Source: Clostridiales bacterium (GTDB lineage: Bacteria; Bacillota; Sulfobacillia; CADDZV01). From it: DNA of 36,278 bases. The notes beneath the pieces were generated by a model, which saw nothing but the letters and a program-made list of their open reading frames with translations, was not told where the DNA came from and made no database searches. Shown here in pieces: positions 8,572 through 34,573 of this stretch. The translations under genes and the position numbers were made by a program. The stretch lies in NCBI GenBank assembly GCA_902812875.1, contig CADDZV010000011.1:1-36278 (forward strand). Direction: 5' to 3'. Position 1 is the stretch's first letter, and each line of letters begins with the position of its first letter.

Positions 8572-8599
8572 CTATCGGCAACAGGCCCTGTTACGTTAA
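8572..8599 (-). promoter_or_regulatory. Sigma-28 (FliA) promoter of flgM-flgN-flgK-flgL
   Basis: Minus strand TTAA (8596-8599), 16-nt spacer, then GCCGATAG (8572-8579). This closely matches the sigma-28 consensus TAAA - about 15 - GCCGATAA. It lies in the 113-bp gap between flgG and flgM, 39 bp before the flgM start. I saw no intrinsic terminator for the upstream operon in this gap, so read-through into flgM is also possible. Confidence 0.8.
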
Positions 8600-10557: not shown

Positions 10558-11337
10558 CTAGGCGTAGACTTCCTTGTGTTTCGTGAGTTTTCCCCGTAGA
10601 CGCATGATCGCCTTGGTATGAAGTTGCGATACCCGCGACTGCGAGACCCCCATCACTTCCGCGATCTCCTTGCCGGTGAGCCCTTCGTAGTAATACAGGC
10701 TCACGACCAGACGTTCTTTTTCCGGCAGGGTATCGATCGCTTCCGCCAACAGGCGCTTGAGGTCGTGCTCTTCGGCCACGGCCACCGGGTCCGGAGACGA
10801 GGTGTCCTCCACGGTTTCCATCAGATGCACCGGCTCGGAGCCGTCCTCACTGCCTACCCAGACCTCGTCCAGGGAGACCATGGCAAACGAAGCCATCTGC
10901 AGATGCAAGTGTTCGAGCTCCTCGCGGGAGATGCCCAGGTATCCTGCCACCTCGTCTTCGGTGCCGGGGCGGCCGAGCGCGGCCTCGACCGCCGCATAGG
11001 CCTCCTCAACCTCACGCGCCCGCCGCCGCAGGGAATGCGGTATCCAGTCGAGTGACCGCAACCCGTCAAGCATGGCCCCGCGGATGCGGGCAAGGGCATA
11101 GGTTTCGAACTTGATGCCCCGCTCGGGCTCAAACCGCTCCACGGCGTCGATCAGTCCGAGGATGCCCCAGTTGTAAAGGTCGTCCGGGTCGACGTGCGGG
11201 GGTAAGCCCACGGCCAGGCGGCCAGCCACGTACTTGACCAGGGGTGCATAACGCATGATGAGGTCTTCTCTCGCCTGCGGGGACCGATGTTTTTTGTACT
11301 CGACCCACAGGTCGGGGTGATGTTCTGGCATGGCCAT
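10558..11337 (-). CDS. fliA: RNA polymerase sigma factor for flagellar genes, FliA/SigD (sigma-28)
   Basis: A 259-residue sigma-28 of the FliA/WhiG family. Region 2 spans about 20-95 (APLVKYVAGRL, LYNWGILGLIDAVERFEP, FETYALARIRGAMLDGLR). Region 3 includes the family mark WIPHSLRRRAREVE at 98-111. Region 4 is at about 200-250 with the helix-turn-helix LTGKEIAEVMGVSQSRVSQLHTKA. It directs RNA polymerase to flgM, fliD and fliC promoters seen in this window. The ATG at 11337 has GGGGG 8 nt upstream; a long in-frame extension overlapping the PilZ gene is spurious. It lies 19 bp after the PilZ gene in the early operon, as expected for the hierarchy. Confidence 0.95.
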   Translation of the reverse strand: MAMPEHHPDLWVEYKKHRSPQAREDLIMRYAPLVKYVAGRLAVGLPPHVDPDDLYNWGILGLIDAVERFEPERGIKFETYALARIRGAMLDGLRSLDWIPHSLRRRAREVEEAYAAVEAALGRPGTEDEVAGYLGISREELEHLHLQMASFAMVSLDEVWVGSEDGSEPVHLMETVEDTSSPDPVAVAEEHDLKRLLAEAIDTLPEKERLVVSLYYYEGLTGKEIAEVMGVSQSRVSQLHTKAIMRLRGKLTKHKEVYA

Positions 11338-11356
11338 CGTCCGTACCCCCTTTTGC

Positions 11357-12073
11357 TTACAGCCGCCCGGACCGGCGCCGGGCCTGTTGCTCTTGCCAGA
11401 CAAGGCGCACAATCGCTTCCAGGTCACGCGAGCTGACCTGGGCAAAACGCACGCCATACTGTGTGCCCTGCTTGGCCAGCGGCCGCACCGCCCGTACCAC
11501 TTCCCCGGTCGCGTGCACGAACCTTCCGGCCGGCAAGGCAATTTCCAAGTCGATCCGGGTGCCGGAGCCGAGGTGGTGGTCTGTCTGGAGCAGGATTCCG
11601 CCACCGCTCATGTCGACGGTAACCCCGGATAGCAGGCGACTCCCGCTGGCATACGCCACTCCCAGGCCCGGAATCGCTGGCCCCGGCGGCAGCCCCGTTG
11701 AGTCCAGCACCGCAAATACAACCGGCAGGCTGATCGCAAGGCGGAAGAAAAGCCGCCGCTGGCCGCGCCAGTGCCTCGCCGGTCGTGCCAGTGCCAAAAG
11801 TGGCACGCCGGACACCCGCCGGTCCTTGACCGTGGTTTCCCAGCGGTAGATGCCAAGCCTGTCCGGCTGTTCTACGGTTACCGCTTCGCCCTGGTCCAAA
11901 ACAACCAGCTGGCCCCGCCGTATGGGCATGGCCACCCACACCAGGCCTTCGGTCATGTCCTCCACATGGGTGACAAACGTTCCCTGATGGCGGCCGGCCG
12001 CCACGTTTAAAAACATGCGAGTGCCAATGCTCACCGGGGGACTACCCGCGACCCAGGCACCACCCTCATCCAT
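11357..12073 (-). CDS. PilZ domain c-di-GMP receptor (YcgR/DgrA-like)
   Basis: A 238-residue two-domain protein. The N-terminal half (about 10-100) fits the YcgR-type beta-barrel. The C-terminal PilZ domain starts with RRLFFR (R107 to R111 gives the RxxxR motif) and has DMSGGG at 154-159 (the D/NxSxxG motif), so both c-di-GMP-binding motifs are intact. In YcgR and DgrA/YpfA, c-di-GMP binding lets the protein act on the stator or switch and slow the motor. The ATG at 12073 has AGGTG 5 nt upstream and overlaps the flhG stop by 8 nt; a 54-codon extension upstream is an out-of-frame shadow of flhG. Its place between flhG and fliA and the riboswitch upstream of the operon make a motility brake the likely role. 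Confidence 0.9.
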   Translation of the reverse strand: MDEGGAWVAGSPPVSIGTRMFLNVAAGRHQGTFVTHVEDMTEGLVWVAMPIRRGQLVVLDQGEAVTVEQPDRLGIYRWETTVKDRRVSGVPLLALARPARHWRGQRRLFFRLAISLPVVFAVLDSTGLPPGPAIPGLGVAYASGSRLLSGVTVDMSGGGILLQTDHHLGSGTRIDLEIALPAGRFVHATGEVVRAVRPLAKQGTQYGVRFAQVSSRDLEAIVRLVWQEQQARRRSGRL

Positions 12074-13025
12074 GGGAGTCACCTGCCGTAATGGCCGCCA
12101 AAAGGCGGCGCCAGAAACCCCCGGTCCCGCCGCTCTTGGCGGGCTCCGGAGGCAGCGCCGGGCTTTTCGCACCGGCCAGGAAATGACTCCACAGCCAGCT
12201 GCCAGCCAACCCGGCCGCCAGTGCGGCGATGGCACGGGCGGCGGGCGCCTGGGGAGCGAACTCGACCAGGGGTGCGTGGGCCCGTACCGCCTGCGGTACC
12301 GCCGGGTCTGCCGGTATATGCCCCAAATAGACAGGCTTCGTGCCGAGATAACGGCTGCAAACGCTGGACAGGTGGGAGTAGGACTGCTCCGCCTCCTCGC
12401 GGGACCGCGCCTGGTTCATGACCAGGCCGACCAGGCGGTCCTGTAGCCCGACCGCCTTCATGAGAGCGTAGGCGTCGGTCATGGCCGTGGGCTCCGGGGT
12501 GGTGACCACCACCACGTAATCTGCCGACCGGACGAACGTGAGCACCTGCGGATGAATCCCGGCCCCGGTATCGACCAGGACCAAATCGAACCCCTGGCTG
12601 AGCTTTTCCAGGCTGTGCATCACCCGCCGCACCGCCGCGGGGCCAAACGCCGCCAGGTCGGACAGGCCAGCGCCCCCGCTGACAAGCCCGAGGCCGGCTG
12701 GGCCGTAATACACCGCCTCCTCCAGCGTGCATTCTCCGGACAGCACATGCCCGAGATGGAAGCGCGGGGAACTCCCGATGAGTACTTCCACGTTGGCAAG
12801 CCCCAGGTCCGCGTCCAGAAGAAGGATGCGACGGCCCTGGCGTGCCAGGCTGATTCCTAAGTTGAGCGAAACGTTGCTTTTGCCCACGCCGCCTTTGCCG
12901 CCCGTGACGGCCAACACCGGCGTGCGGGAGCCGCGGAGGCGGCCGCGGCCTTCTTCGGCCGCTTTGCGGACAGCCTCCTGTGCCCGGACCAAAGCCTCCT
13001 CAAGATGGGTTTCCTGCAAACTCAT
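12066..13025 (-). CDS. flhG: MinD-like ATPase FlhG (YlxH), flagellar number/placement
   Basis: A 319-residue ParA/MinD-type ATPase. The deviant Walker A motif KGGVGKS is at 44-50, DADLGLANVEVL at 71-82 and VDTGAG near 150. FlhG controls flagellum number and site and stimulates the FlhF GTPase. The N-terminal helix (1-30) lacks a clear DQAxxLR activator motif; the nearest match is AQEAVRK at 15-21. The C-terminus has a Trp/Leu-rich amphipathic stretch (LAGSWLWSHFLAG), a plausible membrane-targeting sequence. It starts in an ATGA overlap with flhF and is followed by the PilZ gene in an 8-bp overlap. Confidence 0.92.
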   Translation of the reverse strand: MSLQETHLEEALVRAQEAVRKAAEEGRGRLRGSRTPVLAVTGGKGGVGKSNVSLNLGISLARQGRRILLLDADLGLANVEVLIGSSPRFHLGHVLSGECTLEEAVYYGPAGLGLVSGGAGLSDLAAFGPAAVRRVMHSLEKLSQGFDLVLVDTGAGIHPQVLTFVRSADYVVVVTTPEPTAMTDAYALMKAVGLQDRLVGLVMNQARSREEAEQSYSHLSSVCSRYLGTKPVYLGHIPADPAVPQAVRAHAPLVEFAPQAPAARAIAALAAGLAGSWLWSHFLAGAKSPALPPEPAKSGGTGGFWRRLLAAITAGDSHG

Positions 13026-30871: not shown

Positions 30872-31339
30872 CTAGATCCGGCCTAGCTCCAGGGCCTTTT
30901 CGGCCATGGCCTTGGTGGCGTTCAAAACGGTCACATTCGCCTCGTACGAACGGGTGGCCGACATGAGATCGACCATCTCGGTGACCAGGTCGACGTTGGG
31001 CATCAGCACGTACCCGTCCGGCCCGGCGTCCGGGTTCTGTGGGTCATAGCGCCGTTTGAACGGCGACGGGTCAGCAACGATCTGCTGCACGGCGACGCCC
31101 GTGCCCGGCGCCACCGGACGGGCCACCGACCCGGGCAGGCCGGCCAAGCTCGCCTGTAGTACCGCCCCGAATGTGTCCGCCTGCCGCGGGACGAACACCG
31201 CTACCTCGCGCCGGTAAGGGCCGCCTTGCGGCGTGCGGGTCGTGTTGATATTGGCGATGTTGTTCGCGATCAGGTCAAGCCGCAACCGCTGCGCAGTGAG
31301 TCCCGACGCGGATGCGTCCATGGCTGTGAAGCTCAGCAT
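30872..31339 (-). CDS. flgC: Flagellar proximal rod protein FlgC
   Basis: A 155-residue rod protein. N-terminus MLSFTAMDASASGLTAQRLRLD, then IANNIANINTTRTPQGGPYRR, and C-terminal MPNVDLVTEMVDLMSATRSYEANV, all standard for FlgC. The ATG at 31339 overlaps the flgB stop by one base (TGATG); an in-frame extension into flgB is not conserved. It forms the proximal rod with FlgB and FliE. Confidence 0.96.
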   Translation of the reverse strand: MLSFTAMDASASGLTAQRLRLDLIANNIANINTTRTPQGGPYRREVAVFVPRQADTFGAVLQASLAGLPGSVARPVAPGTGVAVQQIVADPSPFKRRYDPQNPDAGPDGYVLMPNVDLVTEMVDLMSATRSYEANVTVLNATKAMAEKALELGRI

Positions 31340-31761
31340 CAGCTCCGGCCCTCCTCGATCACCGTCCGCCACATGGCCAACCGCGACGCAAGTTGCGTGG
31401 CGAGGGCATTGTAGGCGATGGTGTTCTTGGCCAGTGCGGCCATCTCGGCGTCGACGTCGACCGTGTTCCCGTCGTTCCGCATGGCTCCGCCGGTGCTGGC
31501 GACCACACGCGGCTGCGGCAGGGCCTGGCTGGTGCCGACGCCCAGGTGACCGGGATTGGTCACGACCAGGGCCAGATGGGGCTGCGAGCCCCGGGACAGG
31601 GCGGCCTGCAGGGCGCCTTCGAAGTCGACCGTCTGGGCGACATAGCCGGGCGTGTCGGCATTGGCAATGTTGTTTGCGATCACAGACTGCCGGAGGCTGA
31701 CAGCATCCAGTGCCCGTCGCAGGATGGCATCCACACCGGTGTCAAACCACAAATCCGCCAT
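31339..31761 (-). CDS. flgB: Flagellar proximal rod protein FlgB
   Basis: A 140-residue rod protein, first gene of the long early operon. The N-terminal ALDAVSLRQSVIANNIANAD segment and TPGYVAQTVDFE are typical, as is the C-terminal VDVDAEMAALAKNTIAYNAL. AAGGAGG lies 9 nt before the ATG. Transcription must pass a c-di-GMP riboswitch and terminator (31798-31941) to reach it, so flgB and the 28 or so genes behind it are likely subject to that control. Confidence 0.96.
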   Translation of the reverse strand: MADLWFDTGVDAILRRALDAVSLRQSVIANNIANADTPGYVAQTVDFEGALQAALSRGSQPHLALVVTNPGHLGVGTSQALPQPRVVASTGGAMRNDGNTVDVDAEMAALAKNTIAYNALATQLASRLAMWRTVIEEGRS

Positions 31762-31797
31762 GGTTTTCTCCCTCCTTCACCCCGGTCCGCACCAACC

Positions 31798-31834
31798 AAA
31801 AAAGCCTGCTCGTGGCGGGCGCCAGAAGCAGGCT
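31798..31834 (-). terminator. Intrinsic terminator of the riboswitch expression platform
   Basis: On the minus strand AGCCTGCT (31827-31834) pairs with AGCAGGCT (31803-31810); the loop holds a further TGGC/GCCA stem, and the stem is followed at once by TTTTTT. It ends 36 nt before the flgB ATG. The segment just upstream, GCAGGGCT, can pair instead with the 5' arm (AGCCTGC), giving a candidate antiterminator. This is the expected layout of a transcriptional riboswitch. Confidence 0.9.
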
Positions 31835-31846
31835 ACACAAGCCCTG

Positions 31847-31941
31847 CACTCCTTCGGCGGCCCGGCCGTCATAGCCTTGCGGCTGTAGACCCGTGACTTT
31901 GCGCCCCCGCCTTTCGAACGGGTTTGCCCTTATCGGGAGTG
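31847..31941 (-). promoter_or_regulatory. Cyclic-di-GMP-I (GEMM-I) riboswitch aptamer
   Basis: The minus strand shows all GEMM-I hallmarks in order: P1 5' strand CACTCC (31936-31941), AAGGGCAAACC, a hairpin capped by the GAAA tetraloop (CGTTCGAAAGGCG), GCGCAAAGTC, the tetraloop-receptor half ACGGGTCTA, a hairpin GCC-GCAA-GGC, ATGACGGCCGGG, and the closing P1 strand GGAGTG (31847-31852), which pairs with the 5' strand over 6 bp. The ligand is the second messenger c-di-GMP. It is followed by a terminator and then flgB. The direction of control (ligand turns genes on or off) is not directly visible; an off switch would match the known arrangement upstream of flgB in Clostridioides difficile. Confidence 0.95.
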
Positions 31942-31966
31942 TTCGTCTCACTTTTTGGTAAGGCCG

Positions 31967-31995
31967 CTATTCGACATGGAGGGACAAATTCCTTC
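31967..31995 (-). promoter_or_regulatory. Sigma-H-type promoter of the main flagellar operon
   Basis: Minus strand GAAGGAATT (31987-31995), an 11-nt spacer, then GTCGAATAG (31967-31975). This fits the sigma-H consensus RnAGGAwww - 11/12 - RnnGAATww almost fully. The -10 region also contains TGTCGAA, identical to the core of a Spo0A box. Transcription from here would begin about 20 nt before the riboswitch aptamer. Confidence 0.7.
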
Positions 31996-32739: not shown

Positions 32740-33771
32740 TCACTCCGGCAGCACGGACACAATCACCTCGGTCTGGTGGCCTGGGGACAAAAGCTCGATG
32801 TCCTCCCATTGGGGGCTTTTCTCGTCGTCCTCAGCCAGAAGTCGCAGCGGCGGCCGGCCCGGCAGACGGTCAATCCCCCGCACCAGGCCTTTGCGCCCGC
32901 TGGACAAAAGCACCATGGCACCCGGCGGGTAGGGGGCCACTGCCCGGTAGAAATCGTCCACCACATCGTAGTCGAACTCGAAACCGCCGCTCCCCATGAT
33001 TTCTTCCAGGATTTCGTGCGGGGGCCGCGGCTTGGACCCGTCGCGTCCCTCCAGGCTGGCCACGTAGGCGTCCGCCAATCCGACAATCTGGGCCAGCGGA
33101 TGGAGGTCCTGGCCCCGCAGCCCAGCCGGGTAACCCGACCCGTCCAGCCGCTCGTGGTGCTGGAGCACGATTACTTTCGTCAGAGCCGAGATCAGCACAT
33201 CGTCCTTGATGGCCTGCCAGCCGACCACCGGGTGGTACGCCGGTTCGCCGCGGGCCAGGGCCGGTGCCCGCCCAAGGTCGTGGAGGAGAGCGCCCAAAGC
33301 AAGGTCGCGGCTGCGGTCCCACATTCTCCCGCCAGTGCGGGCACACGCCAGGGCCACCACCGCAACGTTCAAAGAATGTACGGGCAGCTCGGGCAGAGCC
33401 GGGGGGTACACCGCCAAGGGGACGCGGGGGCTTTGCAAGGCCCCGATCTGGCTTGCCAGGTCGCCCGCAGCTTCACGGAGGGCATGCAGAAGTGACGTGA
33501 AGTCGGGACCGTCGGGCCCCTGCGAAAACATCGCATGCAGTACGTGCAGAATACGCGACTCGGTCAGCGGGTTCACAGGCTCGATCGGTTCAATGCCTTC
33601 GGCCCGCGGGTCCACAATCCACAGCGTGCGGATACCCAGCGCCTGCAGGCGCTCCAACTGGTGACCAGACAGCTCCGAGCCGGCCCGCAAGACAAGCCTG
33701 CCCCGCCCGTCGTATACCGGGTGAGCCAGTACCGCCCCGGGCCGCACGCTCAAGATGCTCAAGCGGCGCAT
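32740..33771 (-). CDS. HD-GYP domain protein, probable c-di-GMP phosphodiesterase
   Basis: A 343-residue protein. The N-terminal part (about 1-65) is a small beta-rich domain seen in front of many HD-GYP proteins. The HD-GYP domain is at about 125-300: H133, HD at 164-165 (LLHDLGRAP), H180, HHERLDGSGYPAGLRG at 205-220 and D234 (LADAYVASL). All expected metal and signature residues are present, so hydrolysis of c-di-GMP is likely. A beta-rich tail (about 285-343) follows. There is no membrane segment or receiver domain. The ATG at 33771 has AGGAGG 9 nt upstream; a GTG eight codons earlier would overlap that site. It follows cheR and precedes the glycosylase gene and the riboswitch. Confidence 0.9.
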   Translation of the reverse strand: MRRLSILSVRPGAVLAHPVYDGRGRLVLRAGSELSGHQLERLQALGIRTLWIVDPRAEGIEPIEPVNPLTESRILHVLHAMFSQGPDGPDFTSLLHALREAAGDLASQIGALQSPRVPLAVYPPALPELPVHSLNVAVVALACARTGGRMWDRSRDLALGALLHDLGRAPALARGEPAYHPVVGWQAIKDDVLISALTKVIVLQHHERLDGSGYPAGLRGQDLHPLAQIVGLADAYVASLEGRDGSKPRPPHEILEEIMGSGGFEFDYDVVDDFYRAVAPYPPGAMVLLSSGRKGLVRGIDRLPGRPPLRLLAEDDEKSPQWEDIELLSPGHQTEVIVSVLPE

Positions 33772-33784
33772 CGGCAGAAACCTC

Positions 33785-34573
33785 CTATTGGACACGACGG
33801 AAAAAGCACGGGGCGACCGGTTCGAGGCCGAGCGACCCGGCGTCCAGAATGCTCTCTGTCCCTCCTATGAAAAGTACACCCCCCACCGCCAGGGCCGCAG
33901 CCATCTTTTCCCACACACGCTGTCTGGCCGCAGGGGTCAGATATATCACCACGTTCCGGCAAGCGATCAGGTGCTGGCCAGTGGGGTAGGGATCACGCAC
34001 AAGATCATGCCGGCGGAACCGCACGTACCGCCGCAGGACCGTCCGCACCTTCCAGCACCCATTTTCCTCCCACAGGTACGGTTCGAGCCAGCCGGCTGGC
34101 ACCGACTTCAGGGCATCCGGGCGGTAGCAGCCTTCGGCGGCCTCGCGTAGCGCACCCGGATCGATATCAGTGCCGAGAATTTCCCACGACCGCATGTAGC
34201 CGTACTTATGCATCAAAATGGCCAGCGAGTACGTTTCCGCCCCGTTGGCACAGCCGGCGCTCCATACCTTCAGGTCGAGAAAACGGTGCACAAGCTCCGG
34301 CAGTATGTGCTCATAAAGATACAGAAACCGGTCTGGGTTGCGGAAAAACTCCGAAACGTTGATGCTGAAAAACTCCTGGAAGGCCGCCGCCCGGTTTTGG
34401 TCCTGCCAGAGCAGCCGTGCGTATTCGCGAAGATCACGCGCACCCTCCCTGGCCGCAAACATCCGCAACCGGCGCAAAAGCTGCGGGGTCAGATACGCCC
34501 GCAGGTCAAGCCCGGTGCGGGCCAGCACCGCCTCCGCCACTTCCGCAAAACCCTCATTCTCAGGCACGTTCAT
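33785..34573 (-). CDS. cheR: Chemotaxis receptor methyltransferase CheR
   Basis: A 262-residue S-adenosylmethionine-dependent methyltransferase. The all-helical N-domain (about 10-75, including FFSINVSEFFRNPDRF) precedes the catalytic domain with motif I VWSAGCANGAETYSLAI (about 102-118), the Asp of LGTDIDPGAL and the CRNVVIYL motif. It methylates glutamates on chemoreceptors. The start is ATG at 34573, which overlaps the cheB stop as ATGA and has AGGAG 7 nt upstream; a TTG two codons earlier is too close to that site. CheB, encoded just upstream, does the reverse reaction. Confidence 0.96.
   Translation of the reverse strand: MNVPENEGFAEVAEAVLARTGLDLRAYLTPQLLRRLRMFAAREGARDLREYARLLWQDQNRAAAFQEFFSINVSEFFRNPDRFLYLYEHILPELVHRFLDLKVWSAGCANGAETYSLAILMHKYGYMRSWEILGTDIDPGALREAAEGCYRPDALKSVPAGWLEPYLWEENGCWKVRTVLRRYVRFRRHDLVRDPYPTGQHLIACRNVVIYLTPAARQRVWEKMAAALAVGGVLFIGGTESILDAGSLGLEPVAPCFFRRVQ

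Follow-up and report, generated by a model that had tools for sequence, protein, structure and literature searches.

A putative c-di-GMP OFF riboswitch and a sigma-H-type promoter upstream of the flgB operon in a high-GC member of the Bacillota

The early flagellar operon in the 36,278-nucleotide stretch of DNA from Clostridiales bacterium analysed here (the window) is preceded by a c-di-GMP-I (GEMM-I) aptamer and an intrinsic terminator, which with a probability of about 90 % constitute a transcriptional OFF switch for this operon. A site with the pattern of a sigma-H promoter lies immediately upstream of the aptamer. The features of the leader, in the direction of transcription, are as follows.

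31967-31995, minus strand: sigma-H-type promoter GAAGGAATTTGTCCCTCCATGTCGAATAG, with -35 AGGAATT and -10 GTCGAAT
31936-31941, minus strand: 5′ strand of P1, CACTCC, which pairs with GGAGTG at 31847-31852
31852-31938, minus strand: c-di-GMP-I (GEMM-I) aptamer, from the RF01051 and RF03167 covariance models, with CGCAAAG at the A47 position
31847-31852, minus strand: 3′ strand of P1, GGAGTG, common to P1 and the predicted antiterminator
31821-31853, minus strand: antiterminator predicted from the fold of a partial transcript, AGGAGT...GGGCT pairing with AGCC...GCTTCT of the 5′ arm of the terminator
31798-31834, minus strand: intrinsic terminator, a hairpin of -22.1 kcal/mol with six T
31764-31778, minus strand: ribosome-binding site region of flgB, AAGGAGGGAG, read from the sequence
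31339-31761, minus strand: flgB, the first gene of the operon (TIGR01396, 113.7 bits)

Apart from the c-di-GMP-I aptamer, nothing in the window passed an Rfam threshold. The RF01051 score of the aptamer, 70.1 bits (31853-31938), was twice the gathering cut-off of 35, so that the original prediction of a full GEMM-I aptamer passed the covariance-model check suggested with it. The aptamer also scored 62.8 bits, against a cut-off of 59, with RF03167 (c-di-GMP-I-GGC; 31852-31937), and the Rfam clan filter gave it this name despite the lower number of bits. The ligand contacts of the Vc2 aptamer are G20, A47 and C92 (PMC4744006). The A47 of the window aptamer is given by CGCAAAG and the G20 and C92 positions were read from the alignment by eye; the three residues appear canonical, which makes c-di-GMP the expected ligand of what would be a normal c-di-GMP aptamer.

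The outcome of the clan competition could be taken to mean that the RNA belongs to the c-di-GMP-I-GGC group, with a different or weaker ligand, and that the operon answers another signal. We consider this very improbable. The 'GGC' of the name, which we take to denote the residues at the three contact positions, goes with an RF03167 consensus of CGCGAA (CGCGAAg), G standing at the A47 position, whereas canonical GEMM-I RNAs have CGCAAA. The window RNA has CGCAAA, as do its relatives upstream of flgB in a comparison of 24 loci (CGCAAAG or CGCAAAA) and the second aptamer of the same genome (CGCAAAG; 89.3 bits with RF01051). The automatic count over the 24 loci gave one apparent exception, L136, because the pattern first matched the P2 loop there, and the sequence of L136 also contains CGCAAAG. 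The variant reading was thus rejected on the A47 position: the window RNA passes the RF03167 cut-off but lacks the consensus signature, and its RF01051 score is the higher one. In fold, score and ligand-contact residues there is no essential difference from RF01051, and an expression platform, the terminator with its U-tract, is found downstream. The plain GEMM-I assignment of the original prediction is retained on score and canonical-looking contacts, although the clan-filtered Rfam label is that of the variant.

The second aptamer (L001:1502-1589, contig C2:55291-55378) lies ahead of a small ORF of the membrane type and a TadE-like gene. A GGAGG at this aptamer is contained in a hairpin, GGGCGTC...GACGCCC, which suggests translational control rather than control by a terminator. 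On the other side of the aptamer lies a prepilin-peptidase-like gene (Peptidase_A24, just under the cut-off; L001:1685-2392), and the surroundings are consistent with a pilus cluster.

In the flgB leader the terminator starts 18 nt past the end of the aptamer model, and 36 nt separate the end of its U-tract from the flgB ATG (31761), the distance originally given. Base pairing is possible between the 3′ strand of P1 and the 5′ arm of the terminator, and P1 is compatible with the terminator but shares bases with the antiterminator; both points indicate OFF logic. Folding with P1 constrained had been proposed as a check. In constrained folds of the transcript up to the terminator apex, the antiterminator with native P2 and P3 (-46.8 kcal/mol) was 4.4 kcal/mol better than the native aptamer with P1 (-42.4 kcal/mol), and when the full terminator was present P1 plus terminator (-57.8 kcal/mol) was 6.3 kcal/mol better than the antiterminator (-51.5 kcal/mol). 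In these RNA energy models, which ignore the tertiary contacts of the aptamer, the balance is one that a ligand could tip, as would be expected for a kinetic OFF switch. The unconstrained minimum-energy fold of the leader, on the other hand, did not reproduce native P2 and P3. The leader as a whole was not unusually stable (z = -0.53); its stability gave no signal and was left out of the argument. Over 20 loci, folding of the linker with the terminator arm exceeded that of shuffled linkers (Fisher p = 0.002); at the window locus alone the antiterminator was no better than with shuffled linkers (p = 0.11). By a rule of our own, 22 of the 24 loci, the window locus included, have a terminator 8-44 nt downstream of the aptamer, a few of these terminators being weak (e.g. 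L137, -4.5 kcal/mol).

Transcription by RNA polymerase, most likely with sigma-H, would begin about 20-30 nt ahead of the aptamer. When the c-di-GMP concentration is low, the 3′ strand of P1 would pair with the 5′ arm of the terminator, forming the antiterminator, and 29 genes including fliA would be transcribed. At high concentration the ligand would stabilise P1 and block the antiterminator, so that the terminator would fold and transcription would stop ahead of flgB. c-di-GMP generally lowers motility, which speaks against the opposite arrangement, an ON switch in which c-di-GMP binding favours read-through. Some class I riboswitches are ON switches, and the gene behind Cdi-1-1 of C. difficile rises with c-di-GMP (PMC6200980), but the counterpart before flgB in that species is an OFF switch. 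ON logic was judged unlikely on the sharing of bases between P1 and the antiterminator, and we would give it very little weight.

The C. difficile counterpart, to which the original prediction had correctly pointed, is Cdi-1-3, where c-di-GMP causes termination before a 23-kb flgB operon of 29 genes (PMC6200980). The window has in common with Cdi-1-3 (Cd1) the GEMM-I RNA before flgB, intrinsic termination, and an operon of 29 genes and 23 kb in which the flagellar sigma factor is encoded (PMC6200980, PMC11477304). Riboswitch and operon are a further instance of this well-studied arrangement, so that the riboswitch itself is of an ordinary kind. The difference lies in the leader: C. difficile flgB is transcribed from a sigma-A promoter, and its leader of 496 nt contains an invertible flagellar switch (PMC7438776), whereas the window has a sigma-H-type promoter and an aptamer 90 nt from the flgB ATG.

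The operon and the boundary to the late genes comprise the following features.

8646-31761, minus strand: early flagellar operon flgB-flgG, 29 genes, from Pfam/NCBIfam and gap analysis
11357-12235, minus strand: PilZ/YcgR-type gene, inside the operon
10558-11604, minus strand: fliA, inside the operon
8572-8599, minus strand: FliA/sigma-D-type promoter-like site TTAA-N16-GCCGATAG, directly after flgG and before flgM

The 29 genes counted from flgB (31761) to flgG (8646) cover 23,116 bp. Their order, according to Pfam and NCBIfam, is flgB, flgC, fliE, fliF, fliG, fliH, fliI, fliJ, fliK, flgD, a TIGR02530-like gene (71.9 bits, under the cut-off of 83.2), flgE, flbD, fliL, fliM, fliN, fliO, fliP, fliQ, fliR, flhB, flhA, flhF, flhG, the PilZ/YcgR-type gene, fliA, a small gene to which no name was assigned, flgF and flgG, where fliJ was named by position only, flhF and flhG by domain and order, and flgF and flgG by order. 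From the gene spacing we infer that the genes are co-transcribed. Within the operon, simple scans detected neither a strong sigma-70 promoter nor a terminator beyond what shuffled sequences would give, as had been claimed for flgB to flgG. With a gene for a PilZ/YcgR-type c-di-GMP receptor inside the operon, one c-di-GMP receptor would control another. The FliA-type site before flgM indicates that the late genes, from flgM onward, probably form a transcription level of their own, which FliA produced from the operon would then turn on.

One further feature lies upstream of the switch.

32740-33795, minus strand: gene for an HD-GYP protein, two genes upstream of the operon (Pfam HD_5; motif HHERLDGSGYP)

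The che genes, the HD-GYP gene and a DNA-glycosylase-like gene upstream of the aptamer have the same direction as the operon. A scan of the minus strand from the upstream DNA-repair gene to the aptamer found no terminator, so read-through from these genes would also meet the switch, and transcripts from the che and HD-GYP genes may reach it. The proposal that about 29 genes hang on one RNA decision is thus a fair description of the early genes, but the genes from flgM onward have the FliA-type promoter and upstream transcripts may enter the switch as well. The HD-GYP gene carries the HHExxDGxGYP motif, with similarity to NosR-family PDEs below the cut-off, and its product is likely a c-di-GMP phosphodiesterase. 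Two GGDEF proteins are encoded in the genome.

The promoter was identified with a two-box matrix from 28 C. difficile sigma-H promoters (PMC7438776 Table 3), scanned over the whole window. The site at 31967-31995 was the best on either strand, with 23.2 bits compared to 14.9 for the next independent site, and its -35 and -10 boxes match at the correct spacing, with an AGG-to-GAA distance of 21 nt; the sigma-H-type promoter that had been predicted directly ahead of the aptamer was thereby recovered. Sigma-H is encoded in the genome (TIGR02859, 382.3 bits against 294.8), as are two Spo0A-type proteins, and the spo0A gene is preceded by a similar site, AGGATTA...GTCGAAC. Sigma-H promoters of C. 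difficile, e.g. that of spo0A, GGAGGAATATAATTTTGGAGTGTCGAATATGC, are alike in -35 AGGAAT, spacing and -10 GTCGAAT, whereas the window promoter would drive flagellar genes and flgB is absent from the C. difficile sigma-H list (PMC7438776 Table 3). The openly accessible literature searched gave no account of a sigma-H promoter ahead of flgB.

Among the 24 loci of the flgB set a sigma-H-type site was present before the aptamer in 16 (shuffle p ≤ 0.05), with at least 15 bits in 13, while such sites were found at 7 of 21 other GEMM-I RNAs not located before flgB, with at least 15 bits in 3. Mononucleotide shuffles were used for the matrix and dinucleotide shuffles for a separate scan with a simple consensus. 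At least two of the seven control sites precede flagellar genes other than flgB, to which the pattern is therefore not restricted. In three relatives (L114, L123 and L130) a GEMM-I RNA was not detected near flgB, but the sigma-H-type site is present upstream of the gene. Elsewhere, a GEMM-I RNA and a sigma-H-type site occur together between Noc/ParB-like and ParM/actin-like genes named by eye (G023, L097:341-1444), and a sigma-H-type site lies directly before an hfq-like gene, also named by eye (L159).

The promoter at 31967-31995 contains TGTCGAA, a word that resembles the Spo0A box, and Spo0A binding is thus possible, perhaps alongside sigma-H. Two close TGTCGAA words were also seen upstream of a second Spo0A-type gene (L154), as expected for Spo0A boxes. 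The conserved TGTCGAA might be a Spo0A box in a promoter that is not of the sigma-H type, or most transcription of the operon might depend on sigma-A or come from the che genes upstream; the latter would agree with the result that no terminator was found from the DNA-repair gene to the aptamer, and flgB of C. difficile is sigma-A dependent (PMC7438776). We regard this as unlikely, as the search for a sigma-70-type promoter at the site gave none, the score of 23.2 bits is high within the window, and the whole two-box pattern with its 21-nt AGG-to-GAA distance fits the sigma-H-regulated promoters of C. difficile, in which the -10 box is also TGTAGAAT or TGTCGAAT, e.g. at spo0A. A combined sigma-H and c-di-GMP gate on the early flagellar genes is what we infer for the window.

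GEMM-I RNAs were found in 39 of 41 genomes of the same class, the genome of the window included. In 25 of the 32 evaluable flagellated genomes one is found, in the orientation of flgB, no more than about 400 nt ahead of that gene, a count for which aptamer coordinates were combined by hand with a FlgB search and from which G014 was left out because its flgB is at a contig end. Two of the 25 genomes have tandem GEMM-I RNAs before flgB (L127 of G001, and G016:C69:52907-53158). Several genomes of the class have another GEMM-I RNA before flgF/flgG-like genes, and at L100 and L095 it occurs with a sigma-H-type promoter, so that further flagellar units show the same pairing. Outside the class, GEMM-I RNAs precede flgB/flgC in C. 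difficile, Romboutsia, Paraclostridium, Terrisporobacter, Clostridium uliginosum and 'Clostridia bacterium 41_269'; none was found there in Desulfosporosinus or in most of the Clostridium loci searched. The best matches of the window FlgC, from Peptococcaceae UBA2264 and Desulfosporosinus, are at most 54 % identical. The original prediction pointed out that the switch is found here in a high-GC spore former. The window has a GC content of 64 %, and the organism is by its gene content, with spo0A and sigH present, a spore former, but the arrangement is not unusual for such an organism, being the commonest state of the class.

The C. difficile mode of flagellar operon control, through a c-di-GMP riboswitch, is thus not peculiar to that genus; in a distant class of Bacillota it is the norm. 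The less expected part is the class-wide pairing with a sigma-H-type promoter, which is based on sequence evidence and is worth following up. Sigma-H is the sigma factor of the transition phase and of entry into sporulation, and here it would stand ahead of flagellar genes. The comparison suggests that in this class the flagellar cascade is driven by sigma-H, a factor known for its part in the start of sporulation. On balance we lean towards the view that throughout this class of spore formers the early flagellar operon is under sigma-H with a c-di-GMP OFF riboswitch right behind the promoter, the promoter being kept in three lineages where no riboswitch was detected, and that the sporulation pathway and c-di-GMP would thus decide jointly on motility. 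If true, the sigma-H drive would tie motility, c-di-GMP and spore formation together at one 200-nt leader.
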